From contig OZ024825.1 of NCBI GenBank assembly GCA_964016985.1, positions 33,758,057 through 33,822,056 of the forward strand: a DNA stretch of 64,000 nt. Reading direction: 5' to 3'. The position numbers and the translations under genes are program-made. This stretch comes from Anodontia alba (lineage: Eukaryota; Mollusca; Bivalvia; Lucinida; Lucinidae). Under the pieces are notes generated by a model, which did not search any database, was not told where the DNA came from, and was given only the letters and a program-made list of their open reading frames with translations. Shown piece after piece: positions 13,598-64,000 of the stretch (positions within the stretch are counted from its first letter, which is position 1; each line of letters starts with the position of its first letter).

Positions 13598-15945
13598 ACA
13601 AGAGGCCCACGGGCCACGATTCGCTCACCTGAGTGACATAGCCACTGCAGACATGCAGATGTTATGCAACATTTATCCAATCCTATCATCGCAACTAATG
13701 AAAATATCATCATTTGAGCAGTTCTTAGTTTTGAAGAAGAATATATGGGCCTGACAGTCAATGGAGCATGATCATTAATAAACTATCAATCAGATTTCAA
13801 CAGAAGGATCAATGTGAAATTTGGTGGAAATTGGCTAAGTGGTTTCTGAAGAATCGTGATTTTATACATGTAAACAGCACAGTGGCAGGGACATATTATA
13901 AATATAAACCAGATGATGGCCATCTTAGATTTCCAATCAGAACAATTTTAACTACTGTTGATCTACAAGTCACTTCGATACTTTCAATATAAATGTATAT
14001 GGCCCACACAAATAAGGAAGCAAATTTGACCTTGGAGGTAAAAAGGTCAAATGTCAACATAAACCATCATTTGAGCAATTTTGGTAGATCTCCTGTCCCC
14101 TATAATTTGTGCAAAGATTAGGACCCAGGGCTTATTTGGTTATGGAGAAGAAGATTTTTAAAGGTTTTTACCATATATTGGCATGGCAGCCATTTTGATC
14201 AATGGACCATACCCATTTTAGCAATCTTTCATTCTCCTGCCCACGGAGGCTCCGCATGAAATTTAAGCAACACTGGCCCGGAGGCTTCAGAGGAAAAGCC
14301 ATTTGAAATTATCAACATTTTTTCCATACAAATGTATGGCGCCCATACAAATGCATACAGAAGCAAACTTGACCTCACCGTAAAAAGGTTAAATGTCAAT
14401 GTATGACAATTATTTTAGCAACTTTGGTAGACCGCCCGTTCCAGATGATATATGCAAAGATTCAGCCACAAGCCATCCTCGGTTTTGGAGAATAAGATTT
14501 TTAAATGTTTTTTCCCATGCAAATGCATAAGGAAGCAACTTGACCTTGCCGTAAAAAGGTCAAATGTCAATGTATGACCATTATTTTAGCAACTTTGGTA
14601 GACCCCCTGTCCCCGATGATTTATGCAAATATTCAGCCCCAAAGTATCCTCTGTTCTAGAGAAGAAGATTTATAAAGGTTTTTACCATATATGGGCATGG
14701 CGCCCATCTTGGTCAATGAACCGTGACCATTTTAGCAATCTTTTGTTCCCCCTACCTAAGGAGGCTCCATATGAAATTTGAGCAAAATTGGCCCAGAGGC
14801 TCCAGAGAAGAAGTTGTTTGAAATTCTGAACATTTTTCCCATACAAATGCATAAGGAAGCAAAATTGACCTTAACGTAAAAAGGTCAAATGTCAATGTAC
14901 GACCATTATTTTAGCAATTCTGGTAGCCCTCTTGTTCCCAAAGATATATGCAAAGATTCAGCCATAAGGCATGCTCAGTTTTGGAGAAGAAGATTTTTAA
15001 AGGTTTTTCCCATACAAATGCACAGGGAAGCAAACTTGACCTTGCCGTAAAAAGGTCAAACGACAACGTACGACAATTCTTTTAGCCATGTTGGTAGACC
15101 TCCCGTCCTCGATGATTCCTGCCAAGGTTCAGCCCAAAGGCATTCTCGGTTCTGAAGGAGAAGATTTTTAAAGGTTTTTACCATATATGGGCGTGGCGGC
15201 CATCTTGGTCAACGGACCGTGACCATTTTAGCAATTTTTTGTTCCCCCACCCTAAGAAGGCTCCATATGAAATTTGAGCGAAATTGGCCCAGAGGCTCCA
15301 GAGGAGAAGTTGTTTGAAATTCTGGTCATTTTTCCCATACAAATGCATAAGGAAGCAAAATTGACCTTAACGTAAAAAGGTCAAATGTCAATGTACGACC
15401 ATTATTTTAGCAATTTTGGTAGCTCTCCTGTTCCCAAAGATATATGCAAAGATTCAGCCATAAGGCATGCTCGGTTTTGGAGAAGAAGATTTTTAAAGGT
15501 TTTTCCCATACAAATGCATAGGGAAGCAAACTTGACCTTGCCGTAAAAAGGTCAAACGTCAACGTACGACAATTCTTTTAGCAATTTTGGTAGACCTCCC
15601 GTCCCCGATGATTCCTGCAAAGGTTCAGCCCCAAGGCATTCTCGGTTCTGGAGAAGAAGATTTTTAAAGGTTTTTACCATATATGGGCGTGGCGGCCATC
15701 TTGGTCAACGGACCGTGACCATTTTAGCAATTTTTCGTTCCCCCACCCTAAGGAGGCTCCATATGAAATTTGAGCAAAATTGGCTCAGCGGTTTCAGAGG
15801 AGAAGTTGTTTGAAAATGTTAACGGACGGACGCACGGACGGACGGACGCACGGACGGACGGACGGACGGACGGACGGACGGACGGACGACGGACGAAAAG
15901 TGATCACAATAGCTCATCCTGAGCAGAGCTCAGGTGAGCTAATAA
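13598..15945 (+). mobile_element. TRE-1 copy 1: Helentron-like element with tandem core
   Basis: The start ACAAGAGGCCCACGGGCC contains the hairpin GGCCC-AC-GGGCC and is followed by CGCTCACCTGAGTGACATAG. The core repeats on a ~495-bp higher-order period (landmarks GACCTTAACGTAAAAAGG at 14867 and 15363; GACCTTGCCGTAAAAAGG at 15038 and 15533). A (GGAC)n microsatellite sits at 15819-15895. The end has hairpin CTGAGC-AGA-GCTCAG then GTGAGCTAATAA. CTCAGGTGAGC inverts the early GCTCACCTGAG, resembling the asymmetric terminal repeats of Helentrons. The layout resembles bivalve pearl/MINE elements. No transposase is present. The small frames inside are artefacts. Confidence 0.75.
15819..15895 (+). repeat. 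(GGAC)n-type microsatellite of TRE-1 copy 1
   Basis: Runs of GGACGGACGGACGCACGGAC between the tandem core and the 3' hairpin. Copy 2 has a shorter version at 20199-20255, so length varies between otherwise near-identical elements. Confidence 0.9.
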
Positions 15946-17974: not shown

Positions 17975-20306
17975 ACAAGAGGCCCACGGGCCACGATTCG
18001 CTCACCTGAGTGACATAGCCACTGCAGACATGCAGATGTTATGCAACATTTATCCAATCCTATCATCGCAACTAATGAAAATATCATCATTTGAGCAGTT
18101 CTTAGTTTTGAAGAAGAATATATGGGCCTGACAGTCAATGGAGCATGATCATGAATAAACTATCAATCACATTTCAACAGAAGGATCAATGTGAAATTTG
18201 GTGGAAATTAGCTAAGTGGTTTCTGAAGAATGGTGATTTTATACATGTAAACAGCACAGTGGCAGGGACATATTATAAATATAAACCAGATGATGGCCAT
18301 CTTAGATTTCCAATCAGAACAATTTTAACTACTGTTGATCTACAAGTCACTTCGATACTTTCAATATAAATGTATATGGCCCACACAAATAGGGAAGCAA
18401 ATTTGACCTTGGAGGTAAAAAGGTCAAATGTCAACATAAACCATCATTTGAGCAATTTTGGTAGATCTCCTGTCCCCTATAATTTGCGCAAAGATTAGGA
18501 CCCAGGGCTTATTTGGTTATGGAGAAGAAGATTTTTAAAGGTTTTTACCATATATTGGCATGGCAGCCATTTTGATCAATGGACCATACCCACTTTAGCA
18601 ATCTTTCATTCTCCTGCCCACGGAGGCTCCGCATGAAATTTGAGCAACACTGGCCCGGAGGCTTCAGAGGAAAAGCCATTTGAAATTATCAACATTTTTT
18701 CCATACAAATGTATGGCGCCCATACAAATGCATACAGAAGCAAACTTGACCTCGCCGTAAAAAGGTTAAATGTCAATGTATGACAATTATTTTAGCAACT
18801 TTGGTAGACCGCCCGTTCCAGATGATATATGCAAAGATTCAGCCACAAGCAATCCTCGGTTTTGGAGAATAAGATTTTTAAATGTTTTCTCCCATGCAAA
18901 TGCATAAGGAAGCAACTTGACCTTGCCGTAAAAAGGTCAAATGTCAATGTATGACCATTATTTTAGCAACTTTGGTAGACCCCCTGTCCCAGATGATTTA
19001 TGCAAATATTCAGCCCCAAAGCATCCTCTGTTCTAGAGAAGAAGATTTATAAAGGTTTTTACCATATATGGGCATGGCGCCCATCTTGGTCAATGAACCG
19101 TGACCATTTTAGCAATCTTTTGTTCCCCCTACCTAAGGAGGCTCCATATGAAATTTGAGCAAAATTGGCCCAGAGGCTCCAGAGAAGAAGTTGTTTGAAA
19201 TTCTGAACATTTTTCCCATACAAATGCATAAGGAAGCAAAATTGACCTTAACGTAAAAAGGTCAAATGTCAATGTACGACCATTATTTTAGCAATTTTGG
19301 TAGCCCTCTTGTTCCCAAAGATATATGCAAAGATTCAGCCATAAGGCATGCTCAGTTTTGGAGAAGAAGATTTTTAAAGGTTTTTCCCATACAAATGCTA
19401 AGGGAAGCAAACTTGACCTTGCCATAAAAAGGTCAAACGTCAACGTACGACAATTCTTTCAGCAATGTTGGTAGACCTCCCATCCTCGATGATTCCTGCC
19501 AAGGTTCAGCCCAAAGGCATTCTCGGTTCTGAAGGAGAAGATTTTTAAAGGTTTTTACCATATATGGGCGTGGCGGCCATCTTGGTCAACGAACCATGAC
19601 CATTTTAGCAATTTTTCGTTCCCCCACCCTAAGGAGGCTCCATATGAAATTTGAGCAAAATTGGCCCAGAGGCTCCAGAGGAGAAGTTGTTTGAAATTCT
19701 GGTCATTTTTCCCATACAAATGCATAAGGAAGCAAAATTGACCTTAACGTAAAAAGGTCAAATGTCAATGTACGACCATTATTTTAGCAATTTTGGTAGC
19801 TCTCCTGTTCCCAAAGATATATGCAAAGATTCAGCCATAAGGCATGCTCGGTTTTGGAGAAGAAGATTTTTAAAGGTTTTTCCCATACAAATGCATAGGG
19901 AAGCAAACTTGACCTTGCCGTAAAAAGGTCAAACATCAACGTACGACAATTCTTTTAGCAATTTTGGTAGACCTCCCGTCCCCGATGATTCCTGCAAAGG
20001 TTCAGCCCCAAGGCATTCTCGGTTCTGGAGAAGAAGATTTTTAAAGATTTTTACCATATATGGGAGTGTCGGCCATCTTGGTCAACGGACCGCGACCATT
20101 TTAGCAATTTTTCGTTCCCCCACCCTAAGGAGGCTCCATATGAAATTTGAGCAAAATTGGCTCAGCGGTTTCAGAGGAGAAGTCGTTTGAAAATGTTAAC
20201 GGACGGACGCACGGACGGACGGACGCACGGACGGACGGACGGACGGACGACGGACGAAAAGTGATCACAATAGCTCATCCTGAGCAGAGCTCAGGTGAGC
20301 TAATAA
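17975..20306 (+). mobile_element. TRE-1 copy 2, nearly identical to copy 1
   Basis: It matches 13598-15945 base for base apart from scattered substitutions (for example CTTGACCTCGCC for CTTGACCTCACC) and a shorter microsatellite. Similarity stops exactly at ACAAGAGG and at CTAATAA, so this is transposition and not a larger duplication. Insertion is in the intron between exons 20455-20322 and 16539-16347, in the opposite orientation to the gene, ending 15 bases from the splice donor. Confidence 0.8.
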
Positions 20307-20321
20307 AAACAAGTTTCCTAC

Positions 20322-20455
20322 CGACTTTCCGTTCTTGCGCCACTGAAACTGTGGCCCTGGTATACCGGCAGCATGACAGGTCAACTTTGTCTTGCCATTG
20401 TATGGAATCATGATCTCACCATCCTTTGGGATATACTTAATCAGTTCAACTTCAG
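20322..20455 (-). CDS. Ig-superfamily exon 2: first half of an Ig domain
   Basis: This 134-base exon runs 20455 down to 20322. The acceptor is AATTTTTTTTGCAG, immediately above 20455. The donor GTAGGAAA begins at 20321. It enters in phase 1 and leaves in phase 0. It encodes the linker and A-C' strands of an Ig domain: VELIKYIPKDGEIM, then first cysteine in TKLTCHAAGIPGP and the core tryptophan in QFQWRKNGKS, 12 residues after the cysteine. The second cysteine is on the next exon. Splitting an Ig domain with a phase-0 intron is known in several Ig receptors. The donor is followed after 15 bases by the 3' end of TRE-1 copy 2, so the downstream intron has been remodelled right next to the splice site. 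Confidence 0.85.
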
Positions 20456-20904: not shown

Positions 20905-21362
20905 AGCAATGTTGCTAGTCCTCATTAGAAGTGCCTCACTGAAGTGTTCCTAACTAGTACCACTGATATATCTTTTTATTGTTTGTTTGTGTTGAGGTTT
21001 TACGGCCCAGTCAACCCAATGAGGTCATGTCGAGCGCAGTCAGTTTACCTAACCACACGTTTACTGGGCAGGCTTAGTCCTCTAAGAGGTTAACCAGTAT
21101 TGTGCACATTCTTTTGCCAGAAACTGACAACTGCCCTTCTTGAATCAGTGGAAGGGAGAGAATGACCGTTGAAAATATTTCATGATCAATCTCCACAAAA
21201 GAATGTTGCCGACCTCGGCGGGGGTTGAACCCGCGACCTCCTGGTCTCCAGTCGGACGGCGCATCCAACTGAGCCACTGAGGCCGGCATCTTTTTATTGA
21301 AAACTGGATAAACTTCTCCCAGGATTATCACCAAATACTCCTTCTTAACAAGTAGAGCTATG
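20905..21362. mobile_element. Family C-type MITE split by SINE-1
   Basis: The left part has CTCATTAGAAGTGCCTCACTG-AAGTG (shown in part) and ATATATCTTTTTATTG. The right part has CCAGGATTATCACCAAATAC and CTTAACAAGTAGAGCTATGG, matching the right end of 50225-50435. The SINE at 20982-21287 separates them. Confidence 0.65.
20982..21287 (-). mobile_element. SINE-1, full length, 12-bp target duplication
   Basis: ATCTTTTTATTG occurs at 20970-20981 and 21288-21299. On the minus strand the head GCCGGCCTCAGTGGCTCAGT contains an A-box-like TGGCTCAGTTGGATG and, downstream, a B-box-like GGGTTCAACCC, so it is tRNA-derived. The tail ends in TCAACACAAACAAAC. The layout resembles bivalve tRNA-headed SINEs. 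The TSD supports retrotransposition into the family C element. Confidence 0.88.
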
Positions 21363-21404
21363 GTCAATGAAGGAACTAATTAGGAAGGGAAGATAGGCAG
21401 GCTA

Positions 21405-21725: not shown

Positions 21726-22004
21726 TTGACTGTACTTTAGCATTTTCCCATGAGAAATCTATGGGACCTTTCTGTTGCCATGCCAGTTGCCATAAATTTC
21801 ACAAACTTCAAATCCATGTAACATTGCTGCTGAATAAGGACTGAGCTGCTTCAGTGTTTTTGGAGAGGTCATTTAAAGAGGCAACTTATGCAAACAAACA
21901 CACACCTCTGATAAGGTGAGCTAAACATGGTAAGCATCAAATTAAGGGATCACTTAATTGTCATTATGCCCAATTTATGTTAACACCATGCAGATGCTTA
22001 TTAC

Positions 22005-22277
22005 CTTCTACGACCAAATGGGCTGGATCAGAAAACAATGATTCTTTCCCACTTTCAACCTGACAACGGTATATTCCTCGATCCTGAACTTTGACCTCCC
22101 TGAACCGAAGAGCCCCTGAACTGCGAACACGATAGTTTATACCATATCGTGTCATCTCTTCATTATTATGGTACCATCGAACTCTTGGCTTTGGTTTTCC
22201 GGATGCTTCACAATGTAACAGATGGCGCTTGTTCAACAAAACAGTGGCATTCTTTGGAGGACGTGTAATAATTAATT
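22005..22277 (-). CDS. Ig-superfamily exon 1: one complete Ig domain
   Basis: This 273-base exon runs 22277 down to 22005, symmetric phase 1-1 as is usual for single-domain Ig exons. The acceptor CCCTATTTCTATTTCAG is just above 22277 and the donor GTAATAAG starts at 22004. It encodes about 91 residues: IITRPPKNATVLLN with sequon NAT, first cysteine in LLHCEASGKPKP, tryptophan in VRWYHNNEEM 12 residues later, and the DxGxYxC signature DRGIYRCQVESG; 48 residues separate the cysteines. It joins in frame to 20455-20322. In spacing and linker this pair resembles adjacent mid-ectodomain Ig domains of PTK7/off-track, but identity is not settled. No signal peptide, transmembrane or kinase exon is visible in the window. 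Upstream exons were not found. Confidence 0.87.
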
Positions 22278-22365
22278 CTGAAATAGAAATAGGGACAAAG
22301 TAGAAATTTACAGGATTTATTTCTGAAAAAAAAAAATACAAACACAGACCAAAAAAAACAAACAA

Positions 22366-24836
22366 ACAAGAGGCCCACGGGCCACGGGTCGCTCACCTGA
22401 GTGACATAGCCACTGCAGATATGCAGATGTTATGCAACATTTTTCCAATCCTGTCATCGCAACTAATGAAAAGATCATCATTTAAGCAGTTCTTTATTTT
22501 GAAGAAGAAGATATATGGCATGCCAGTGAATTCAGCGTGATCATTTGAACAAACTCTAAATGGCAGCCAGCTTTGATTTACAATCGGCACGATTTTAGCT
22601 GTTTTTGATCTACGAGTCACCCCAATACTTCCTACCAAGTTTCGAGTCAACTGGCCTTTCAGTTCAGGAGAAGAGGCGAAAAATAGATTTTCAAGATGGC
22701 TGCCATGGCGGCCATCTTGGATATCCGATTGGCATGATTTTAGCTATTTTTGATCTACAAGTCACCCCAATGTCTCCTACGAAGTTTGGAGTCAATTGGC
22801 CTTTCAGTGCACGAGAAGAAGCTAAATATAGATTTTCAAGATGGCAGCCATGGTGGCCATCTGGGATTTCTGATCAGAACGATTTTAGCTATATTTGATC
22901 TACAAGTCACTCTGATGCTTCCTACTAAGTTTCGAGTCAAGTGACTTTTGGGTTTAGGAGAAGAAGCGAAAAATAGATTTTCAAGATAGCTGCCATGGCG
23001 GCCATCTTGGATTTATGATCGGCATGATTTTAGCTATTTTTGATCTACAAGTCACCTAAATGCTTCTTAACAAGTTTCGAGTCAACTGGCCTTTCGGTTC
23101 AGGAGAAGAAGCGAAAAATAGATTTTCAAGATGGCGGCCATGGCGCCCATCCTGGTTTTACGATCGGCATGATTTTATCTATTTTTGATCTACAAGTCAC
23201 CCCGATGCTTCCTACCAAGTTTGGAGTCAATTGGCCTTTCGGTTCAGGAGAAGAAGCGAAAAATAGATTTTCAAGATGGCTGCCATGGCCGCCATCTTGG
23301 ATTTCCAATAGGCACGATTTTAGCTATTTTTGATCTATAAGTCACCTCAATGCCTCCTACCAAATTTGGAGTCAATTGGCTTTTGGGTTTAGGAGAAGAA
23401 GCGAAAAATAGATTTTCAAGATGGCGGCCATGGCGGCCATCTTGGATTTCTGATCGGCACGACTTTAGCTACTTTTGATCTACAAGTCACACTGATGCTT
23501 CCTAGCAAATTTGGAGTCAATTGGCCTTTCGGTTCTGGAGAAGAAGCGAAAAATAGATTTTCAAGATGGCGGCCATCTTGGATTTCCGATTGGCACAACT
23601 TTAGCTACTTTTGATCTACAAGTCACCCTGATGCTTCCTAGCAAATTTGGAGTCAATTGGCCTTTCGGTTCAGGAGAAGAAGCGAAAAATAGATTTTCAA
23701 GATGGCGGCCATGGCGGCCATCTTGGATTTCCGATCGGCACGATTTTAGCTATTTTTGATCTACAAGTCACCCTGATGCTTCCTAGCAAGTTTGGAGTCA
23801 ACTGGCCTTTCGGTTCAGGAGAAGAAGCGAAAAATAGATTTTCAAGATGGCAGCCATGGCGGCCATCTTGGATTTCCGATCGGCACGATTTTAGCTTTTT
23901 TTTATCTACAAGTCATCCTGATGCTTCCTAGCAAGTTTGGAGTCAATTGGCCTTTCGGTTCAGGAGAAGAAGCGAAAAATAGATTTTCAAGATGGCGGCC
24001 ATGGCGGCCATCTTGGATTTCCGATCGGCACGATTTTAGCTACTTTTGATCTACAAGTCACCCTGATGCTTCCTAGCAAGTTTGGAGTCAACTGGCCTTT
24101 CGGTTCAGGAGAAGAAGCGAAAAATAGATTTTCAAGATGGCGGCCATGGCGGCCATCTTGGATTTCCGATCGGCACGATTTTAGCTATTTTTGATCTACA
24201 AGTCACCCTGATGCTTCCTAGCAAGTTTGGAGTCAACTGGCCTTTCGGTTCAGGAGAAGAAGCGAAAAATAGAATTTCAAGATGGCAGCCATGGCGGCCA
24301 TCTTGGATTTCCGATCGGCACGATTTTAGCTATTTTTGATCTACAAGTCACCCTGATGCTTCCTAGCAAGTTTGGAGTCAACTGGCCTTTCGGTTCAGGA
24401 GAAGAAGCGAAAAATAGATTTTCAAGATGGCGGCCATGGCGGCCATCTTGGATTTCCGATCGGCACGATTTTAGCTATTTTTTATCTACAAGTCACCCTG
24501 ATGGTTCCTAGCAAGTTTGGAGTCAATTGGCCTTTCGGTTCAGGAGAAGAAGCGAAAAATAGATTTTCAAGATGGCGGCCATGGCGGCCATCTTGGATTT
24601 CCGATCGGAACGATTTTAGCTATTTTTGATCTACAAGGCACCCCGATGCTTCCTACCAAGTATCAAGTCAATTGGCCCAGGGGTGTAGGAGGAGTAGGCT
24701 TTTAAAGCAATTGTTGACGCCGCACGACGGACGACGGACGACGCACGACGCACGACGGACGACGCACGACGGACGACGGACATTGACTGACCACAATAGC
24801 TCACCATGAGCACTTCGTGCTCAGGTGAGCTAATAA
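22366..24836 (+). mobile_element. TRE-1 copy 3, with a 145-bp tandem core
   Basis: The start ACAAGAGGCCCACGGGCC and following GCTCACCTGAGTGACATAGC match copies 1 and 2 for about 150 bases. The core is then entirely different (22590-24665). A (GACGGAC/GACGCAC)n tract lies at 24716-24780. The end has hairpin TGAGCAC-TTC-GTGCTCA then GGTGAGCTAATAA. The stem differs in sequence from copies 1 and 2 but still pairs. Its 5' end lies 88 bases above the exon acceptor at 22278. Confidence 0.78.
22590..24665 (+). repeat. 145-bp satellite-like array, about 14 units, with inverted YY1/PHO-type motifs
   Basis: The landmark GATCTACAAGTCAC recurs every 145 bases (for example 23757, 23902, 24047, 24192, 24337, 24482), with one 136-base step near 23476-23612 where ATGGCGGCC is missing. 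Units at the right are almost identical; units at the left are more diverged. Each carries CAAGATGGCGGCC followed by GGCGGCCATCTTGG, facing inward-outward. Because 145 is 3x48+1, the frame rotates each unit, so the many ~85-codon frames here are artefacts. Confidence 0.9.
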
Positions 24837-31246: not shown

Positions 31247-31475
31247 ATTAACCCTTAAAGCGCCAATCACAACCACAGCAGACGACATTCTAAAACATTT
31301 TAATTTTCTTTTTCTGAGTAAGAAAGTAAGACTTGACATTTTATGTGAATCAACTGCCAGGCAGATAATTCTCATGAAATGTCAAGCCTTACATTCTCTG
31401 TAAAATAATTAAAAAAAACAAAAAACAAAAAAACTCAGAATGCTGTCTGCTACAATTCTGCAATTTAAGGAGACT
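31247..31475. mobile_element. Family D MITE
   Basis: TTAACCCTTAAAGCGCCAAT at the left. GAATGCTGTCTGCTACAATT and GCAATTTAAGG at the right. Hairpin TTGACATTTTATGTGAATCA pairs with ATTCTCATGAAATGTCAA. Confidence 0.72.
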
Positions 31476-33290: not shown

Positions 33291-35395
33291 CATTTAAGTG
33301 CCAAGCAAAATTATGGCAAACAACATTATGAATTCTTCTATTTAACTTTTCAGAGAAATAAGTCTTGACATTTCATGTGAATCTTCTGCTTGGCAGATGA
33401 TTCACATAAAATGCAACACCTATTTTCTGTAAAAACAAGCAAATTCCATGGGGAATTTATGTCCCCTGCCTAATTTTTATTTGAGGTGTTAAAAATGCTA
33501 AAGTTAACCAGAGGAGCACTGGTCCTGTATCAAATACCTAAGTATTGAAGCAGGAAACCAGTGATAAAAAATAATTTCAAGATTCTGAAAAAAACCACAT
33601 GCATATCTTCAGACCATCCTTAAAGCACCTGTAAAAATTCAAAGGATCGGCTTAAAACTGTGGTAGGAGTTACTGGGTCAAGGTACCTACTCCCTATACG
33701 CTTCTGTAGTATTAGAACTCAAAAAATGTCTGTTAAAAATGCAGAAAAAGTGGTAAAAAATTATTTCAGGATTCTGAAAAAACCACATGCATATCTTCAG
33801 GCCATCCTAAAAGCCCTTGTAAAGTTTCAAAAGGATCGGACAAAAACTGTGGGAGGAGTTAAGGGGACAAGGTGCCTGCACCCTATATACTTCTGCAATA
33901 TTAGAACGCAAAAAATGTCTAAGTTAAAAATGCAGAAAAAGTAATAAAAAAATATTTCAGGATTCTGAAAAATCCACATGCATATCTTCAGGCCATCCTA
34001 AAAGCCCACATAAAGTTTCAAAAGGATCGGCCAAAAACTGTGGGAGGAGTTAAGGGGACAAGGTACCTACTCCCTATAGACTTCTGTAAAATTAGAACTA
34101 AAAAAATGTCTAAGTTCAAAACGTGTAAAAAGTGATAAAAAATAATTTCAGGATTCTGAATAAACCACATGCATATCTTCAGACCATCCTTAAAACACCT
34201 GTAAAGTTTCAAAAGGATCGGCCAAAAACTGTGAGAGGAGTTAAGGGGACAAGGTACCTGCTCCCTATATACTCCTGTAGTATAAGAACTCAAAAAATGT
34301 CTAAGTTAAAAATGCGGAAAAAGTAATAAAAAATTATTTCAGGATTCTGACAAAACCACATGCATATCTTCAGGCCATCCTGAAAGTCCATGTAAAGTTT
34401 CAAAAGGATCGGCCAAAAACTGTGGGAGGAGTTAAGGGGACAAGGTACCTACTCCCTATACACTTCTGTAGTATTAGAAATCGAAAAATGACTAAGTTAA
34501 AAATGCGGAAAAAGTGATAAAAAATTATTTCAGGATTCTGAAAAAACCACATGCATATCTTCAGGCCATCCTTAAAACACCTGTAAAGTTTCAAAAGAAT
34601 CGGCCAAAAACTGTGGGAGGAGTTAAGGGGACAAGGTACCTGCTTCCTATACACTTCTGTAGTATTAGAACTCAAAAAAAGTCTAAGTGAAAAATGCGGA
34701 AAAAGTAATAAAAAATTATTTCAGGATTCTGAAAAAACCACATGCATATCTTCAGGCCATCCTAAAAGCCCATGTAAAGTTTCAAAAGGATCGGCCAAAA
34801 ACTGTGGGAGGAGTTAAGGGGACAAGGTACCTACTCCCTATACACTTCTGTAGTATTAGAACTCAAAAAATGTCTAAGTTAAAAATGTGGAAAAAGTGAT
34901 AAAAAATTATTTCAGGATTCTGAAAAAACCACATGCATATCTTCAGGCCATCCTAAAAGCCCATGTAAAGTTTCAAAACGATCGGCCAAAAACTGTGGGA
35001 GGAGTTAAGGGGACAATGTACCTACACCCTATAGACTTCTGTAATATTAGAACTCAAAAAATGTCTAAGTTAAAAATGCAGAAAAAGTGATAAAAAATTA
35101 TTTCAGGATTCTGAAAAAACCACATGCATATCTTCAGACCATCCTTAAAACACCTGTAAAGTTTCAAAAGGATCGGACAGAAACTGTGGGAGGAGTTAAG
35201 GGGACAAAGTACCCACTAAAAACTCGGAACCACGCACCACGCACCACGCACCACGCCCCACGGAAAACCAAAAACAGTGTCCCTCCACTTTTCTTCGAAA
35301 AGGCGGGGGACAATAAAAAAAAATTCAAAATGTAGTCCGCTGCTGTCGTAAGCTGTTCTTGCTGTCCCAATTTTAAGAGTATTTACCCAATATGT
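33286..35395. mobile_element. Family D MITE split by a TRE-2 element
   Basis: The left part has TTTAAGTGCCAAGCAAAATT and hairpin CATTTCATGTGAATCTTCTG / CAGATGATTCACATAAAATG, breaking at CTGTAAAA. After 35316 AAATTCAAAATGTAGTCCGC-TGCTGTCG (in part) continues the family. Confidence 0.65.
33435..35316 (+). mobile_element. TRE-2: tandem-core element with 191-bp units
   Basis: The start ACAAGCAAATTCCATGGGGAATTT contains hairpin AAATTCC-ATGG-GGAATTT (string given in part), then GTCCCCTGCC. The core has nine 191-bp units: landmark CCACATGCATATCTTCAG at 33783, 33974, 34165, 34356, 34547, 34738, 34929, 35120. An (ACCACGC)n tract lies at 35231-35262. The 3' end has hairpin CTTTTC-TTC-GAAAAG, then GCGGGGGACAATAA. 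GGCGGGGGAC inverts the early GTCCCCTGCC with one mismatch. No sequence is shared with TRE-1 but the plan is the same. The 82- to 94-codon frames inside are repeats, not genes. Confidence 0.82.
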
Positions 35396-36612: not shown

Positions 36613-36825
36613 TTAAAGCGCCAATCACAACTGCAGCAGACAACATTTATTTATTTTTTATTTTTTTCAGAGAAAACAAGTCTTGACATTTCCTGTGAAT
36701 CATCTGCTTGGCAGATGATTCACATGAAATGTCAAAACTTGTTTTCTCTGAAAAAATAATAAAAAAAAAAATTTGAATGTCGTCTGCTACAAATTTTGCT
36801 TGGCGCTTTAAGCGTTTAGAGTTAA
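36609..36825. mobile_element. Family D MITE, near-perfect hairpin
   Basis: CCCTTAAAGCGCCAATCACA and GGCGCTTTAAGCG ends. Arms CTTGACATTTCCTGTGAATC-ATCTGC and GCAGAT-GATTCACATGAAATGTCAA (in parts) pair, with AGAGAAAACAAG/CTTGTTTTCTCT outside. Confidence 0.8.
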
Positions 36826-37008
36826 AGCTCTTACTGTGGAGAAAGTGTTTCTAGACAGTACCTTGCACACCCATGCACGAATGATCACACAGGTATATAA
36901 ATTGTACATACCCCAAATAGTCGAAATTACACGATTAAATACTCCCGTCACAGTTGGTAGTAGTATCATTTAAATCATATTTGATCCATTCAGCAGAGAA
37001 AAAGCACC
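36825..37008. other. Short unrecognised stretch
   Basis: No repeat family or reading frame recognised. Confidence 0.35.
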
Positions 37009-38370: not shown

Positions 38371-38570
38371 TTAACCTTCAAAGAGCAATTCAAAATTGTA
38401 GCAGACAACATTCTAATTTTTTTTCTATTGAGCCAAGAAAATAAGCTTTGTCATTTCACGTGAATCATCTGACTAGCTGATAATCTACATAAATGATAAG
38501 CTCTATTTTCTCAGAAAAAAAAAAAAAAGCTGCCTGCTGCTATTATGACTGGGGCTGTAAGGGTTAACTT
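38371..38570. mobile_element. Family D MITE
   Basis: TTAACCTTCAAAGAGCAATTC (in part) and GGGGCTGTAAGGGTTAA ends. Arms TCATTTCACGTGAATCATCTG and AGCTGATAATCTACATAAATGA (in part) pair imperfectly. Confidence 0.68.
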
Positions 38571-40936: not shown

Positions 40937-41308
40937 GATAATACCCTGCCAGCAGATAACACTAACAAAAATCGATGAAATTTTCCCATTAGCAATCCCA
41001 AACCAGAGCTTCACAACATCAATGCATATACAAAGTTTGGTGAAAATCCATTGACATTTACTCAAGTTATCATTTGGAAACACAAATATGGACATGTTTC
41101 AGGTAGATAACTGTCTAAATATTGACGAAATTTGCCCATTAGCAATCCCAATCAGATACTAAGTTAGGTGAAAATCCATTGATATTACTCAAGTTAGAAT
41201 CCGGAAATGAAATATGGACGGATGGACATACGATGGAGGGACAGACACACGGACCTCCAACGTGAAACCATAATACCCTGCCACTATCGTGTAGCAGGGT
41301 ATAATAAT
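40937..41308 (+). mobile_element. TRE-3 copy 1 (ATACCCTGCC ends)
   Basis: Starts GATAATACCCTGCCAGCAG. The core has landmark CCCATTAGCAATCCCA at 40985 and 41135 (150 bases apart). (GGAC/GATGGAC)-type microsatellite at 41215-41250. The 3' end has hairpin ATACCCTGC-(12 nt)-GCAGGGTAT at 41273-41302, then AATAAT. It follows the same plan as TRE-1 and TRE-2. Confidence 0.7.
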
Positions 41309-43766: not shown

Positions 43767-43981
43767 CTTAACCCTTAAAGCGCCAATCCCAACTCCAGCA
43801 GACGACATTTTGAAATATCTTTTTTAATTTTCTAAAGAAAACAAGTCTTGATATTTCATGTGAATCGTCTGCCAAGCAGACGATTCACATGAAATATCAA
43901 AACTTGTTTTCTTTGAAAAATTAAAAAAAACAAAAATAAATGTCATCTGCTATAAATTTTGCTTGGCACTTTAAGAGTTAA
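43767..43981. mobile_element. Family D MITE, near-perfect hairpin
   Basis: TTAACCCTTAAAGCGCCAAT and GGCACTTTAAGAGTTAA ends. Arms TTGATATTTCATGTGAATCG-TCTGC and GCAGA-CGATTCACATGAAATATCAA (in parts) pair; note GATATTTC in both arms where other copies have GACATTTC. Confidence 0.82.
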
Positions 43982-44193
43982 CCCTTAAAGCACTTATCAT
44001 AACTGCAGCAGAAAACATTTTGAGTTTTGGGGTTCTTTGTACATTTTTGAGAAAATAAGGCTTGACATTCCAAGCAAATCATCTGCCAGCAGATGATTCA
44101 CATGAAATACCTGGTCTTATTTCTCTAAAAAAATAACTGTAAAAAAATAGAATGTTGTCTGCTACAATTTTACTCAGCCCTTTAAGGATTAAC
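43978..44193. mobile_element. Family D MITE directly abutting the previous one
   Basis: It shares TTAA 43978-43981 with its neighbour. CCCTTAAAGCACTTATCATA ... CAGCCCTTTAAGGATTAA. Arms TTGACATTCCAAGCAAATCA and AGATGATTCACATGAAATAC have begun to diverge. Confidence 0.75.
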
Positions 44194-44724: not shown

Positions 44725-44900
44725 TTAACCTTTAAAGTGCTAATAATCACAATTGTAGCTGACAACAACTTGATTTTTTTCAGAGAAAATAAGACTCAAT
44801 ATTTCATGTGACTCATCTGCCTAGCAGACAATTCATATGAAATGTCAATTCTTATTTTTTATGATTAGAAATGTAAAAAAAAGTATTAAACAACTTGTGC
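44725..44900. mobile_element. Family D MITE
   Basis: TTAACCTTTAAAGTGCTAAT left end. Arms AATATTTCATGTGACTCATC and AGACAATTCATATGAAATGT pair imperfectly. Right end lost. Confidence 0.65.
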
Positions 44901-46100: not shown

Positions 46101-46204
46101 TGAAACAACAATTGTTGGAAAATCAGTTTGTTTCAGTGAACTTTGATACATCCAAGTAGCTCAGGACTCCTCACCTCACTATGTCTTGTCTAATAAAAGT
46201 GTGA

Positions 46205-47180
46205 AATGATAATACCCCAACCACTATCGTGTAGCAGGCACATAACTCTGTCAAAAATTGTAAATAAAAGCGCTGCAAGCACTGCACCATGCCCCGCCAC
46301 TGCACTTACATCAAGCAAGTGCCATAACTCTGTCAAAAATAAAATGTGTTCTACATGTTATGTCCCTTTACATTTTGCAAGGCTTCAAGAAAATCTCTGA
46401 AACCGTTTTCCAGTTATAGAAAGTATATGATTTGGATCATTATTAACAAAGTTCAAAGGGTGGTAACTCCAAAAGCAGGTAATTCAGAGTAACTGTTCTT
46501 TTGTTTTGCACATCATATCATGATGATATACATTTGCATAAAGTTTCAAGAAAATATCTCAAACAGTATTCAAGTTACAGAGTGGACACAAATATATTAC
46601 AGAAATCACTATTTTCAAAGTTCATCACTCCAAAAGTAGGTGAACCAGAGTTACAGTTCTTGTGTTCTGCATCTCGGCTCATGATGCTTTATATTTGGGT
46701 GAAGTTTCATCAAATTATCTGGAACGGTTTTCAACTTACAGAGCGGACACGAGTACATAGTAGAAATGGCTATTTTCAATATCTACTATGTTCAAAGGGC
46801 CACAACTCCAAAAGTAGGTTAACCAGTTAAGGACTTTGTGTTCTGCATGTTGTCTCATCGAACTCTACAGCTGTGAGAAATTTCATAATAATATCTCGAA
46901 CAGTTTTCAACTTACAGAGCGGACACTAGTACATGGTAGAAATGGCTATGTTCAATGCTCAAAGGGCAATCACTCCAAAAGCAGGCAAACCAGAGTTATG
47001 GTTCATATATTCTGCACATCGTCTTATAGTGGTTTATACTTGTGTGAAGTTTTGTGAAAATATCTCAGACGGTATCAAGGTTATGGAGTGGACAGGAAAG
47101 ATGGAAGCGCTGATGGATGGACTGATGGATGGACACTCAAAATTTCGGAGGGTATAACATAATACCCTTGCCACTTTTTG
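46205..47180 (+). mobile_element. Tandem-core element, ~160-176-bp units, TRE-3-like ends
   Basis: GATAATACCCCAACCACTATCG at the left (in part) and ATAATACCCTTGCCAC at the right. Landmark TTACAGAGYGGACAC falls at about 46574, 46735 and 46911. A (GATGGACT)-type microsatellite lies at 47110-47135. The CACTATCGTGTAGCAGG string near the start equals the loop and 3' stem of TRE-3, so ends are shared with TRE-3 while the core differs. The 64- to 109-codon frames are repeat-derived. Confidence 0.68.
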
Positions 47181-47182
47181 TG

Positions 47183-47372
47183 ATGGGGCACAAAAATTGC
47201 CCATTAGCAGTCCCAAACCAGATCTCCACAATATCAGTGCACATAACAAGTTTGGTGAAATTCCATTGATATTTACTTAAATTATCGTCCAGAAATGAAA
47301 ATACAGATCAGGGACGATGGATGGATGGATGGACATATGGACAACCAATGTGCATCACGAAAACACGCCTAT
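47183..47372 (+). repeat. TRE-3 fragment (core and microsatellite, 3' hairpin lost)
   Basis: TTGCCCATTAGCAGTCCCAA, TTTGGTGAAATTCCATTGAT, then GATGGATGGATGGATGGACA and GACAACCAATGTGCATC. It directly follows the previous element. Confidence 0.65.
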
Positions 47373-50836: not shown

Positions 50837-52592
50837 ACAAGAGGGCCATGATGGCCCTGTAACGCTCACCTGAGCAACATAGCACTTTGAGAGCCTTATC
50901 TAGAACTGATCAAAGCAAACATTCTGATCAAAGTTCAAAATGATTATAACAAAGTTTTCTGCTGCTTTGGCCTGGTGACCTAGTTTTTGATACCAAGTGA
51001 CCCAGTTTCGAACATATCCTAGAACTCATCAAGACAAACATTTTAAGCAAGATTTGGCCCGGTGACCTAGTTTTTGACCCCAAGTGACCCAGTTTCAAAC
51101 ATATCCTAGAACTCATCAAGACAAACATTTTGAGCAAGATTCATGATAATTGCTTAAAAAATGTGACTGCTAGAGTGTTAACAAGGTTTTCTGCTGGTTT
51201 GGCCTGGTGACCTAGTTTTTAATACCACGTGACCCAGTTTCTATCCTGACCTAGAAATCATCAAGACAAACATTTTGAGCAAGATTCATGATTATTGCTT
51301 CAAAAATGTGACGGTCAGAGAGTTAACAAGGTTTTCTGCTGATTTGGCCCGGTGACCTAGTTTTTTATCCCAAGTGACCCAGTTTCAAACCTGACCTATA
51401 AATCATCAAGACAAACATATTGAGCAAGATTCATGATGATTGCTTCAAAAATGTGACTGCTAGAGTGTTAACAAGGGTTTCTGCTGATCTGGCCAGGTGA
51501 CCTAGTTTTTGACCCTAGGTGACCCAGTTTTGAACTTGACCTAGAATTCATCAAGACAAACATAATGAGCAAGATTCATGATGATTGCTTCAAAAATGTG
51601 ACCTCTAGAGTGTTAACAAGGTTTTCTGCTGATCTGGCCCGGTGACCTAGTTTTTGACCCCAAGTGACCCAGTTTCGAACTTGACCTAGAAATCATCAAG
51701 ACAAACATATTGAGCAAGATTCATGATGATTGCTTCAAAAATGTGACCGCTAGAGTGTTAACAAGGGTTTCTGCTGATCTGGCCAGGTGACCTAGTTTTT
51801 GACCCTAGGTGACCCAGTTTCGAACTTGACCTAGAATTCATCAAGACAAACATAATGAGCAAGAGTCATGATGATTGCTTCAAAAATGTGACCGCTAGAG
51901 TGTTAACAAGGTTTTCTGCTGATCTGGCCCGGAGACCTAGTTTTTGACCCCAAGTGCCCCAGTTTCGAACTTGACCTAGAAATCATCAAGACAAACATAT
52001 TGAGCAAGATTTATGATGATTGCTTCAAAAATGTGACTGCTAGAGTGTTAACAAGGTTTTCTGCTGATCTGGCCAGGTGACCTAGTTTTTGACCCCAGGT
52101 GACCCAGTTTCAAACTTGACCTAGAAATCATCAAGACAAATATATTGAGCAAGATTCATGATGATTGCTTCAAAAATGTGACCGCTAGAGTGTTAACAAG
52201 GTTTTCTGCTGATCTGGCCCGGTGACCTAGTTTTTGACCCCAGATGACCCAGTTTCGAACTTGACCTAGATTTAATAGAGGCAAACATTTTGAGCAAGTT
52301 TCATCAAGATTGGGTCAAAACTATGACCTGTAGAGTGTTAACAAGTTTTTCCTTTGATTTGACCTGGTGACCTAGTTTTTGACCCCAAGTAACCCAGTAT
52401 CGAACTTGACCTAGATTTGATAGAGGCAAACATTCTGACAAAGTTTCATCAAGATTGGGTCAAAACTGTGACTTCTAGAGTGTTAACAAACTAATTGTTG
52501 ACGACGGACGACGTACGACAGACGACGGACGACGACGGACATAGGGTGATGACAATAGCTCATCCTGAGCTTTTGCTCAGGTGAGCTAACAA
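50837..52592 (+). mobile_element. TRE-1 copy 4, with its own 145-bp core
   Basis: The start ACAAGAGGGCCATGATGGCC has hairpin GGGCC-ATGAT-GGCCC, then CGCTCACCTGAGCAACATAG. Core landmark TGTTAACAAG falls at 51611, 51756, 51901, 52046 and 52191, exactly 145 apart, with sequence unrelated to copy 3 (GGTGACCTAGTTTTTGACC, AAGTGACCCAGTTT). (GACGGACGACGTACGAC)-type tract at 52500-52541. The 3' hairpin is CTGAGC-TTTT-GCTCAG then GTGAGCTAACAA. Confidence 0.82.
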
Positions 52593-55716: not shown

Positions 55717-56016
55717 TGTTTGTTTGTGTTGAGGTTTTACGGCCCAGTCAACCCAATGGGGTCATGTCGAGCGCGGTCAGTTTACCTAACCACACGTTTA
55801 CTGGGCAGGCTTAGTCCTCTAAGCGGTTAACCAGTATTGTGCACATTCTTTCGCCAGAAGCTGACAACTGCCCTTCTTGAATCAGCGGAAGGGAGAGAAT
55901 GACCGTAGAAAATATTTCATGATCAATCTCCACGAAAGAATGTTGCTGACCTCGGTGGGGGTTGAACCCGCGACCTCCTGGTCTCCAGTCGGACGGCGCA
56001 TCCAACTGAGCCACCG
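55717..56016 (-). mobile_element. SINE-1, full length, 11-bp target duplication
   Basis: AGACAGTTTTA lies at 55706-55716 and 56017-56027. Minus-strand head has TCGGTGGCTCAGTTGGATGC and CGCGGGTTCAACCCCCACC. The element ends CCTCAACACAAACAAACAT. Confidence 0.9.
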
Positions 56017-56128
56017 AGACAGTTTTAGAAACTTTTGAAAAATGGAGGCATGACAATTACCCCATCCCACTGTGTTTCTGTTGGAAAACTTTATTGAACA
56101 GTCTAGGCAGTTATTGATTTTGTTCATG

Positions 56129-60094: not shown

Positions 60095-60345
60095 ACATAC
60101 TAATGGTTAATAAAAACTGACAAAATTTGCCCATTGCCAATCCCAAACCAGATCTCAACAATATCATTGCATATACCAAGTTTGGTGAAAATCCATTGAT
60201 ATTTACTGAAGTTATCTTTGTCCTGTAAAGAAAATACAGATGGATGGACATACTGCAGACAGATCAACAGACAGACACATGGACAACCAACATGAAACGA
60301 TAATACCCTGCCACAATCCATTTGGCAGGTATAAAAGCATAACAT
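60095..60345 (+). mobile_element. TRE-3 copy with 3' hairpin
   Basis: TTTGCCCATTGCCAATCCCA core, one unit only. GATGGATGGACATACTGCAG microsatellite remnant. 3' hairpin ATACCCTGCC-(11 nt)-GGCAGGTAT at 60303-60334. Confidence 0.7.
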
Positions 60346-63010: not shown

Positions 63011-63605
63011 GTTGTCCTCCCTGAGAAGGAGGCAAATTCTTTCAAGTAATGATAAATATCCTAAAATTTAGAACACTTTTTTTATTTGAATTTTTGCTTT
63101 TTATGCAGTTGTTTCTTGACATGCTTTGTGGAATGGCAAACAGTGTTGACCCTATCAGACTGCAGTCTGATCTGGGTCTGCACTGATTGTACATGGCATT
63201 TTGTCAGAAACTTTGGTTTGTTTGTGTTGAGGTTTTACGGCCCAGTCAACCCAATGGGGTCATGTCGAGCGTGGTCAGTTTACCTAACCACACGTTTACT
63301 GGGCAGGCTTAGTCCTCTAAGCGGTTAACCAGTATTGTGCTCATTCTTTCGCCAGAAACTGACAACTGCCCTTCTTGAATCAGCAGAAGGGAGAGAATGA
63401 CTGTAGAATATATTTCATGAGCAACCTCCACGACAGAATGTTGCCGACCTCGGCGGGGGTTGAACCCGCGACCTCCTGGTCTCCAGTTCCAACTGAGCCT
63501 CCGAGGCCTGCACAGAAACTTTGGTGTTCGCAATTTTAGGACATTTACCATAACTCTTTCCTTTAAGAGTAGTCTCCTGCGAAGGCAAATACTTTCAAGT
63601 TACAG
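63005..63605. mobile_element. Further family A compound palindrome, split by SINE-1
   Basis: AAATATCCTAAAATTTAGAAC and CGCAATTTTAGGACATTTACC (each in part) are the ends. Hairpin GCAAACAGTGTTGACCCTATC-AGACTGCAGTCT (in parts). TTAAGAGTAGTCTCCTGCGAAGG (in part) at the right matches 13004-13071-type sequence. Confidence 0.65.
63218..63512 (-). mobile_element. SINE-1, head partly deleted, 13-bp target duplication
   Basis: CAGAAACTTTGGT lies at 63205-63217 and 63513-63525. The B-box-like CGCGGGTTCAACCCCCGCC is intact but about 15 bases around the A box (GCGCCGACTGG in other copies) are missing, leaving TTGGAACTGGAGACC. Confidence 0.9.
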
Positions 63606-64000
63606 TCACTGAGGCAGCCATCTTGGATTTTGGATCAGAACGATTTTATCTATTTGTGATCTACTCTTATACTTCCTACCAAGTTTCGAGTCAATTGGCT
63701 TTTCGGGTTAGGAGTTCAAAATAGATTTTCAATATGGTGGCCATCTTGAATTTCCAGTTTGAATGATTTTAGCTTTTTGATCTGCAAGTCACCCCTATGC
63801 TTCCTATCAAGTTTGGAGTCAAATGGCCTTTAGAGAATGAAGTTCAAAATAGATTTTTACCATCTTTGATTTATGATCAAAATGATTTTAGTTATTTTTT
63901 ATCTACAAGTCATTCCAATACTTCCTACCAGGTTTCCAGTCAACTGGCCTTTCGGTTCAGGAGAAGAAATTCAAAATAGTCATCTTGGCCATCTTGATTT
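63605..64000 (+). repeat. Diverged 145-bp-type units, running off the window
   Basis: GGCAGCCATCTTGGATTTTG, GTTTCGAGTCAATTGGC and TTAGGAGTTCAAAATAGATT (each in part) are the unit of 22590-24665 in a more diverged form, with AAGAAGCG replaced by shorter linkers. No TRE-1 5' end precedes it. At least 2.5 units are present and it continues beyond 64000. Confidence 0.75.

Follow-up and report, generated by a model that had tools for sequence, protein, structure and literature searches.

In a 64,000-nucleotide stretch of the genome of the bivalve Anodontia alba (assembly GCA_964016985.1, contig OZ024825.1, forward-strand positions 33,758,057 to 33,822,056; hereafter, the window), we analyzed three families of elements, TRE-1, TRE-2, and TRE-3, the second of which is represented by a copy at 33435..35316. 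We conclude with high confidence that the families TRE-1 and TRE-2 consist of HINEs, that is, non-autonomous Helentrons, a type that TRE-3 fits less completely, and that their canonical 5' end is the one reading AATAA on the plus strand. A sequence-only reading had proposed seven copies, all of which are found in their places when the window sequence is read, and had likened them to Helentrons or Helitron2 elements, a likeness that their anatomy of subterminal inverted repeats (subTIRs) and tandem cores supports. The direction that it assigned to them is inverted, since the HINE convention puts the elements on the minus strand. The plan that it took to be unusual defines HINEs and is already in the literature, with 11 elements of C. 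gigas (PMC7492417) as well as elements of mites and flies (PMC4067079). What is new here is additional families of an already published element type.

Anatomy and orientation of the elements

The layout described as common to TRE-1 and TRE-2 is real: its named features are present by reading in the four TRE-1 copies (TRE-1a to TRE-1d) and in TRE-2. On the minus strand, each element begins with TTATT (TTGTT in TRE-1d), followed by a subTIR of 10 to 12 nt, a short loop, and a complementary inverted repeat (IR); the stem of this hairpin is longer in TRE-1c. The microsatellite, the tandem core, the 3' subTIR, a short palindrome, CTTGT, and a host T come next. The subTIR is GCTCACCTGAGC in TRE-1 and GTCCCCCGCC in TRE-2, and by reading the TRE-1 subTIR pairs match at 11/11 nt in all four copies. 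What had been described as a 3' hairpin plus an inverted motif is not two separate parts, being the single 5' hairpin formed by the subTIR and its complementary IR, and the supposed 5' hairpin is the 3' terminal palindrome in the canonical orientation. Two details of the earlier description hold in part. The AATAA end is found in TRE-1a to TRE-1c and in TRE-2, but TRE-1d ends with AACAA; the TRE-1 palindrome is shared by three copies, but differs in sequence in TRE-1d (GGGCCAT-G-ATGGCCC).

TRE-2 (33435..35316, minus strand) is delimited by its sequence, by Tandem Repeats Finder (TRF), by folding, and by its site within a copy resembling a miniature inverted-repeat transposable element (MITE). 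Its 5' hairpin of subTIR and IR occupies 35279..35311. The (ACCACGC)n microsatellite (35229..35262) and the core, with 8.7 copies of a 191-bp unit (33560..35217), are both taken from TRF and carry no strand. The 11-nt 3' subTIR, TGTCCCCTGCC on the plus strand, is at 33460..33470, the palindrome AAATTCC-ATGG-GGAATTT at 33441..33458, and the 3' terminus, canonical CTTGT and then the host T, at 33435..33439. In TRE-1a (13598..15945, minus strand; sequence and folding), the corresponding parts are the 5' hairpin at 15912..15939, the (ACGG)n microsatellite at 15822..15895 (TRF, no strand), the 3' subTIR at 13623..13633 (GCTCACCTGAG on the plus strand, by reading), and the palindrome GGCCC-AC-GGGCC at 13604..13615.

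TRF independently detects the cores and microsatellites of TRE-1a to TRE-1d and of TRE-2, including a 496-bp higher-order unit in TRE-1a. The elements, which are mostly tandem core, have no coding capacity, and no stop-to-stop open reading frame (ORF) of at least 150 amino acids is listed in the window, frames running off its ends being outside the listing.

The termini were folded with DNA energy parameters, and each was compared with 200 dinucleotide shuffles. The 5' hairpins on the AATAA side gave z-scores of -6.0, -6.7, -9.1, -5.9, and -4.2 for TRE-1a, TRE-1b, TRE-1c, TRE-1d, and TRE-2, respectively, and in none of the five did any shuffle fold as low (0/200 each). On the ACAAG side, a palindrome follows the 3' subTIR in the sequence of 5/5 TRE-1 and TRE-2 copies. 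By energy, these palindromes are weaker than had been claimed: z is -2.6 in TRE-1d (6/200 shuffles as low) and -1.5 in TRE-2 (15/200).

Insertion sites and copies in public sequence

Frames that happen to read through the elements served as queries against a protein database, and the best 120 matches per query were considered. The TRE-1c core had 3593 matches, the 5' end of TRE-2 had 501, and the 3' end of TRE-1 had 409; we take the matched proteins, of which the listed ones are marked "ena," to be fortuitous translations of public genome sequence. Among the best 120 of the 409 TRE-1 3' matches, 11 without an intact end reading were left out and 109 show an intact end; counting repeated flanks once reduced 110 sites to 104 distinct flanks. 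In the codon preceding CAA-GAG, the last base is the first A of ACAAG, so that Lys, Gln, or Glu at this position means a host base A. Read in this way, an A (canonical T) precedes ACAAG in 88 of the 104 distinct flanks, compared with 33.5% expected from the window (binomial P of 7e-27), and lysine occupies the position in 75% of cases versus 6 to 8% eight to ten residues farther out. Within the window, the base adjoining the ACAAG end is likewise A on the plus strand in 5/5 TRE-1 and TRE-2 copies, and canonical T makes up 51% of the 10+10-nt flanks versus 31% across the window. The TRE-1 target is T/T on the canonical strand, clear at the 3' side.

For TRE-2, 32 ends lie in a usable frame among the best 120 of the 501 matches, a second frame (20 ends) having been excluded because TAA is a stop there. 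Asparagine or lysine stands at position +1 in 30/32 and at +2 in 28/31, and then in 8/30 at +3; the 5' ends of TRE-2 are sharp at ACAANAA. In the window, TRE-2 interrupts a palindromic MITE-like copy within its A-rich stretch. When the flanks of TRE-2 were joined and compared with the window, 20 rows spanned the joint, of which two represent the TRE-2 locus. Alignments to six further distinct copies of the MITE-like family continue for 14 nt or more beyond the joint, with identities of 71 to 80% and with mismatches and gaps where the sequence is A-rich. These data are compatible with a T/T target for TRE-2 and do not prove it. No usable joint-spanning match within the window was obtained for the four TRE-1 copies. 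Different target rules for each family, which the sequence-only reading had named as evidence against a common mobilizing system, did not appear between TRE-1 and TRE-2: the TRE-1 target is clearly T/T, and that of TRE-2 is compatible with it.

The MITE-like family that hosts TRE-2 in one of its copies is long and palindromic, with arms containing ACATGAAATGTCAA... and ends near CCCTTAAAGCGCC / GGCACTTTAAGNGTTAA. Copies lie at 36620-36830, 43770-43990, 43990-44180, 31295-31404, 38400-38520, 44757-44857, and other places in the window.

The TRE families could themselves be MITEs of a cut-and-paste transposon, which PMC7492417 gives as the first class of Pearl elements, and their inverted repeats, lack of coding capacity, and many copies in public sequence would suit such an origin. 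Their inverted repeats, however, are subterminal, and no target site duplication (TSD) beyond the Ts can be read in the flanks of any of the five TRE-1 and TRE-2 elements or at the joined TRE-2 site. We therefore regard a MITE origin as very improbable.

The resemblance between the families might also be due to chance and pattern-seeking. When the window was scanned de novo with a loose definition of the architecture (a hairpin with an inverted repeat and a palindrome), this census returned 173 clusters, many of them from tandem cores, whereas 100 Markov controls averaged 17; a strict form of the census found three of the five TRE-1 and TRE-2 copies, and the control maximum was also three (mean, 0.39). 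Since the raw excess is mostly tandem cores and the strict form equals the control maximum, we dropped the census as evidence. Against chance stand the z-scores of the 5' hairpins, the 409 and 501 protein matches to the TRE-1 3' end and the TRE-2 5' end, and the sharp boundaries among the copies examined, so that this explanation is scarcely credible.

TRE elements also insert into one another: one TRE-1 insertion lies within TRE-2 (P0150), and two apparently lie within TRE-1 (P0249 and P0261). In scans of IMG/VR, neither the TRE-1 3' end nor the TRE-1d core had any match. The TRE-1 5' end met a phage-like contig (L001:1-4500) with an exact 18-mer and an adjacent short hairpin, which we took as chance; this contig holds a single subTIR copy in the 8128 bases examined. 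A gapped TRE-1 pattern, which returned at least 120 stretches in IMG/VR, was too loose and was discarded. Of 66 papers matched in a literature search for the TRE end sequences, the 15 listed are unrelated by title, supplements being outside the search.

Identity as non-autonomous Helentrons

The closest published parallel in our survey is the set of 11 Cg_HINE elements of C. gigas, with 13 core clusters, whose parts are a 5' subTIR, complementary IR, microsatellite, array, 3' subTIR, and palindrome, and which insert at T-rich or TT sites without a TSD; some of them are alike in their ends only, and others are unlike throughout (PMC7492417). The TRE elements share with them the order of parts, the TT-rich target without a TSD, and related ends with unrelated cores. 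Several Cg_HINE elements carry GTCY, GTCC, or GTCK microsatellites, and their units are mostly of 140 to 180 bp, whereas the TRE-2 unit measures 191 bp and TRE-1a has its 496-bp higher-order unit; the likeness is structural. Autonomous Helentrons from Repbase could not be related to Cg_HINE, for which that paper identifies no partners.

Largely the same parts occur in the HINEs, DINE-1 elements, and Helentrons of PMC4067079, which are linked there to Rep/helicase/endonuclease partners. DINE-1, HINE-Mo, and Helentrons resemble the TRE elements in their subTIRs, microsatellite, central repeats, and 3' stem-loop, and they target TT and vary in the Ts at their ends. DINE-1, like TRE, has an IR near the 5' subTIR, whereas the mite HINE families have none; autonomous partners are known in these groups. 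Among bivalves, Pearl CvA, CvE, and CvG, DTC84, and MgE, likened here by description, have a comparable structure with short repeat arrays and differ in sequence (PMC7492417 and PMC11136912). A canonical Helitron (Helitron1, with 5' TC, 3' CTRR, and insertion between A and T) was rejected, given ends of TTATT or TTGTT...CTTGT and a T after the 3' end.

Several observations weigh against the assignment to HINEs or against the details given above. No autonomous partner was seen in the window, where the Helitron domain is absent from the 10 ORFs (113 to 127 amino acids) checked, of 97 of at least 75 amino acids listed. By reading, the 11-nt subTIR pair of TRE-2 contains one mismatch, and the ACAAG-side palindromes of TRE-1a, TRE-1b, and TRE-1c are ordinary by energy (z of about 0). 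Both TRE-3 copies listed by the sequence-only reading are without ACAAG, and their 3' end does not fit. As for the target, 16 of the 104 TRE-1 flanks lack the A before ACAAG (14 have another base by codon, and 2 are unreadable in that way), and at the boundary originally set on the AATAA side, the adjoining base is A on the plus strand in only 3/5 copies, so that a T/T target on this side requires some terminal Ts to belong to the host. These flanks would not reveal a TSD of only one or two Ts. The empty MITE-like copies, being diverged, place the TRE-2 insertion within the A-rich stretch and not to the base, and neither this site nor the TRE-2 5' ends in public sequence can separate the element's own As from those of the host.

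By analogy with the better-known Helentron systems, we infer an enzyme, rolling-circle steps, and a route of core replacement. A Helentron Rep/helicase encoded elsewhere would nick the 5' end, at TTATT and the subTIR/IR hairpin, and one strand would be copied by rolling circle through the microsatellite and the tandem core. Copying would end at the 3' subTIR, palindrome, and CTTGT, with the 3' palindrome marking the end, and the strand would be joined between two Ts without target duplication. In this account, the tandem cores are passengers, expanding and being replaced between fairly constant ends.

Ends, cores, and families

TRE-1b (17975..20306, minus strand) is 98% identical to TRE-1a, with different flanks. 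TRE-1c (22366..24836, minus strand) has the ends of the TRE-1a subfamily, with 193 nt in common with TRE-1a at one end (88%) and about 300 nt at the opposite end (70%); its 145-bp core is diverged, a distant homolog of the TRE-1a core. TRE-1d (50837..52592, minus strand) carries the TRE-1 subTIR; the ends that it has in common with TRE-1a extend over only about 46 nt (77%) and 92 nt (83%), and its 145-bp core does not align with the TRE-1a core. Among 10 pairs of cores compared in the same orientation, the TRE-1a/TRE-1c relationship is clear (0/300 shuffles) and the TRE-1c/TRE-1d relationship weak (6/300). For the microsatellite-proximal segments (18 pairs, uncorrected), the counts per 1000 shuffles were 0 for TRE-1a/TRE-1c, 6 for TRE-1d/TRE-2, 26 for TRE-1a/TRE-3a, and 30 for TRE-1c/TRE-1d.

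The same ends thus flank unlike cores within the TRE-1 family. Of the proposed swapping of cores and ends, core replacement is supported within TRE-1, where TRE-1a and TRE-1d have like ends and unlike cores; the converse, two unrelated ends around the same core, was not observed among the elements of the window. The statement that TRE-1 and TRE-2 have no visible core sequence in common agrees with BLAST, which found 0 matches between TRE-2 and TRE-1a, TRE-1c, or TRE-1d, but a 24-nt block beside the microsatellite may be common to them (see below).

Under the rule of PMC4067079, at least 11 bp of identical subTIR define a family and at least 80% identity over the last 60 nt a subfamily. Applied here, it unites TRE-1a to TRE-1d in one family, with TRE-1a, TRE-1b, and TRE-1c in one subfamily (95 to 100%) and TRE-1d in another (69%), and it keeps TRE-2 separate (48 to 52%).

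Two pieces of TRE-1c-type core lie outside TRE-1c. At 13917-13985 in TRE-1a, and at the equivalent place in TRE-1b, one degenerate TRE-1c-type monomer precedes the array and is perhaps a relic of an earlier core. By reading, a TRE-1c-type core array with no recognizable 3' end (63613..64000, minus strand) is cut by the window edge.

The sequence-only reading had proposed that one shared enzyme moves all three families, reading hairpin structure and ACAAG...AATAA but not the subTIR sequence. TRE-1 and TRE-2 indeed have common CTTGT ends, near-identical TTATT/TTGTT ends, and compatible targets; TRE-1d keeps a palindrome of a sequence unlike that of TRE-1a to TRE-1c; and the subTIRs of TRE-2 (GTCCCCTGCC) and TRE-3 (ATACCCTGCC) agree by reading at 8/10 positions. 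However, families are defined by identical subTIRs in PMC4067079, where the non-autonomous families of Culex are >95% identical to their respective partners, making several related partners the default. Moreover, the TRE-1 subTIR is unchanged in 4/4 copies although the remainder of the 3' end falls to 69% identity, an argument for recognition by sequence, and ACAAG is absent from the listed TRE-3 copies. A single structure-reading enzyme is, in our judgment, unlikely; closely related enzymes would accord with the shared TTATT...CTTGT termini.

TRE-3

TRE-3, which had been said to follow the same order of parts, does so incompletely. TRE-3a (40937..41308, minus strand) and TRE-3b (60095..60345, minus strand) have the 5' hairpin (z of -4.8 and -2.8, respectively) and, by reading, a degenerate microsatellite; TRF lists no TRE-3 array in the window. 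A 3' palindrome was not found in TRE-3a (fold z of 0.3), nor by reading in TRE-3b. The subTIR pair of TRE-3a measures about 9 to 10 nt by reading; in TRE-3b, the 3' subTIR was not found by reading, and the 3' end is not recognizable in that way. A further copy, TRE-3c (47147..47360, minus strand), which the sequence-only reading did not list, has the 3' palindrome GGGTAT-ATACCC (z of -2.2, 3/200 shuffles as low) and no recognizable 5' end, and a TRE-3 5'-end fragment lies at 46201..46238 (minus strand, by reading). TRE-3 is probably a HINE-type element that matches the plan in part.

A possible box shared by mostly unlike cores

A 24-nt block with a consensus of about CCRATYTTGNTGAAACTTNGTAGG occurs in TRE-1a, TRE-1c, TRE-1d, TRE-2, and TRE-3b within 100 nt of the inner edge of the microsatellite. 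Its sequences are CCAATTTTGCTCAAATTTCATATG in TRE-1a (15760..15783), CCAATTGACTTGATACTTGGTAGG in TRE-1c (24652..24675), CCAATCTTGATGAAACTTTGTCAG in TRE-1d (52435..52458), CCGATCCTTTTGAAACTTTACAGG in TRE-2 (35153..35176), and TGGATTTTCACCAAACTTGGTATA in TRE-3b (60172..60195), all on the minus strand, at offsets from the microsatellite of 38, 38, 40, 52, and 45 nt, respectively. The joint score of 141 was reached by 0/40 shuffled sets (maximum, 124) and by 0/150 sets of other window DNA (maximum, 136). Without TRE-1a, left out because it is homologous to TRE-1c, the score was reached by 0/40 shuffled sets but by 4/150 sets of other DNA; for TRE-1c, TRE-1d, and TRE-2 alone, the counts were 0/40 and 0/150. 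On the far side of the core, where the ends of TRE-1a and TRE-1c are alike, a control gave scores of 133 (five elements) and 38 (these three).

The test was post hoc, the motif having first been seen by eye, and the method will produce a block from whichever sequences it is given; the test took TRE-3b from among three TRE-3 copies, with TRE-1b, TRE-3a, and TRE-3c outside the test. Since the motif was seen before the test and three related copies stand outside it, the shared box is a modest lead and not a result. It is possible, although we lean against it, that the cores are not arbitrary cargo and that each family keeps the box as a cis-acting site or as the last trace of an ancestral core. 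A cis-acting role could lie in Rep binding, second-strand priming, or array expansion. There are precedents for conserved segments in such arrays: the BIV160 and Cg170 satellites, which are partly Helitron borne, share two conserved motifs that their diverged monomers keep (PMC5139131), and two conserved segments are described between otherwise unlike monomers in oyster (PMC7492417). The TRE box may be one of these.

Neighboring features of the window

Ten HINE copies or pieces (four TRE-1, one TRE-2, three TRE-3, one TRE-3 fragment, and one core array) all lie in one orientation, for which a sign test by hand gives about 0.002, the copies not being fully independent. This orientation is also that of the strand of immunoglobulin-domain exons at 20.3 to 22.4 kb; the reverse would put AATAAA-like ends in the sense strand. 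The exons of this immunoglobulin-domain gene are at 20307-20450 and 21964-22300 on the minus strand (Pfam I-set, E of 7e-15); the shorter one matches Ig_3 with an E of 6e-6, below that family's cutoff. By reading, TRE-1b starts about 15 nt past the likely splice donor of the shorter exon. A third candidate peptide, at 16.3 to 16.5 kb, matched no family. Directly before the canonical 5' end of TRE-1b, CTTGT is found at 20307-20320 (aaaCTTGTttTTATTAG), by chance or as the trace of a tandem insertion.

At 63300-63600, a stretch contains the tRNA-like GGTCGCGGGTTCAACCCCCGC, and similar translated pieces occur at 21074-21379 and 55811-56056. By its resemblance, this stretch may be a short interspersed nuclear element.

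Implications

Our analysis assigns the repeat families studied here to a known superfamily, with their orientation reversed relative to the first description, and fixes the boundary of TRE-1 and its T rule from >100 insertions in public sequence. If the box is indeed a cis-acting site or an ancestral trace, it would explain why only certain satellites are carried. Should it hold in more families, it would provide a cis requirement open to testing in bivalve Helentrons that carry satellites.

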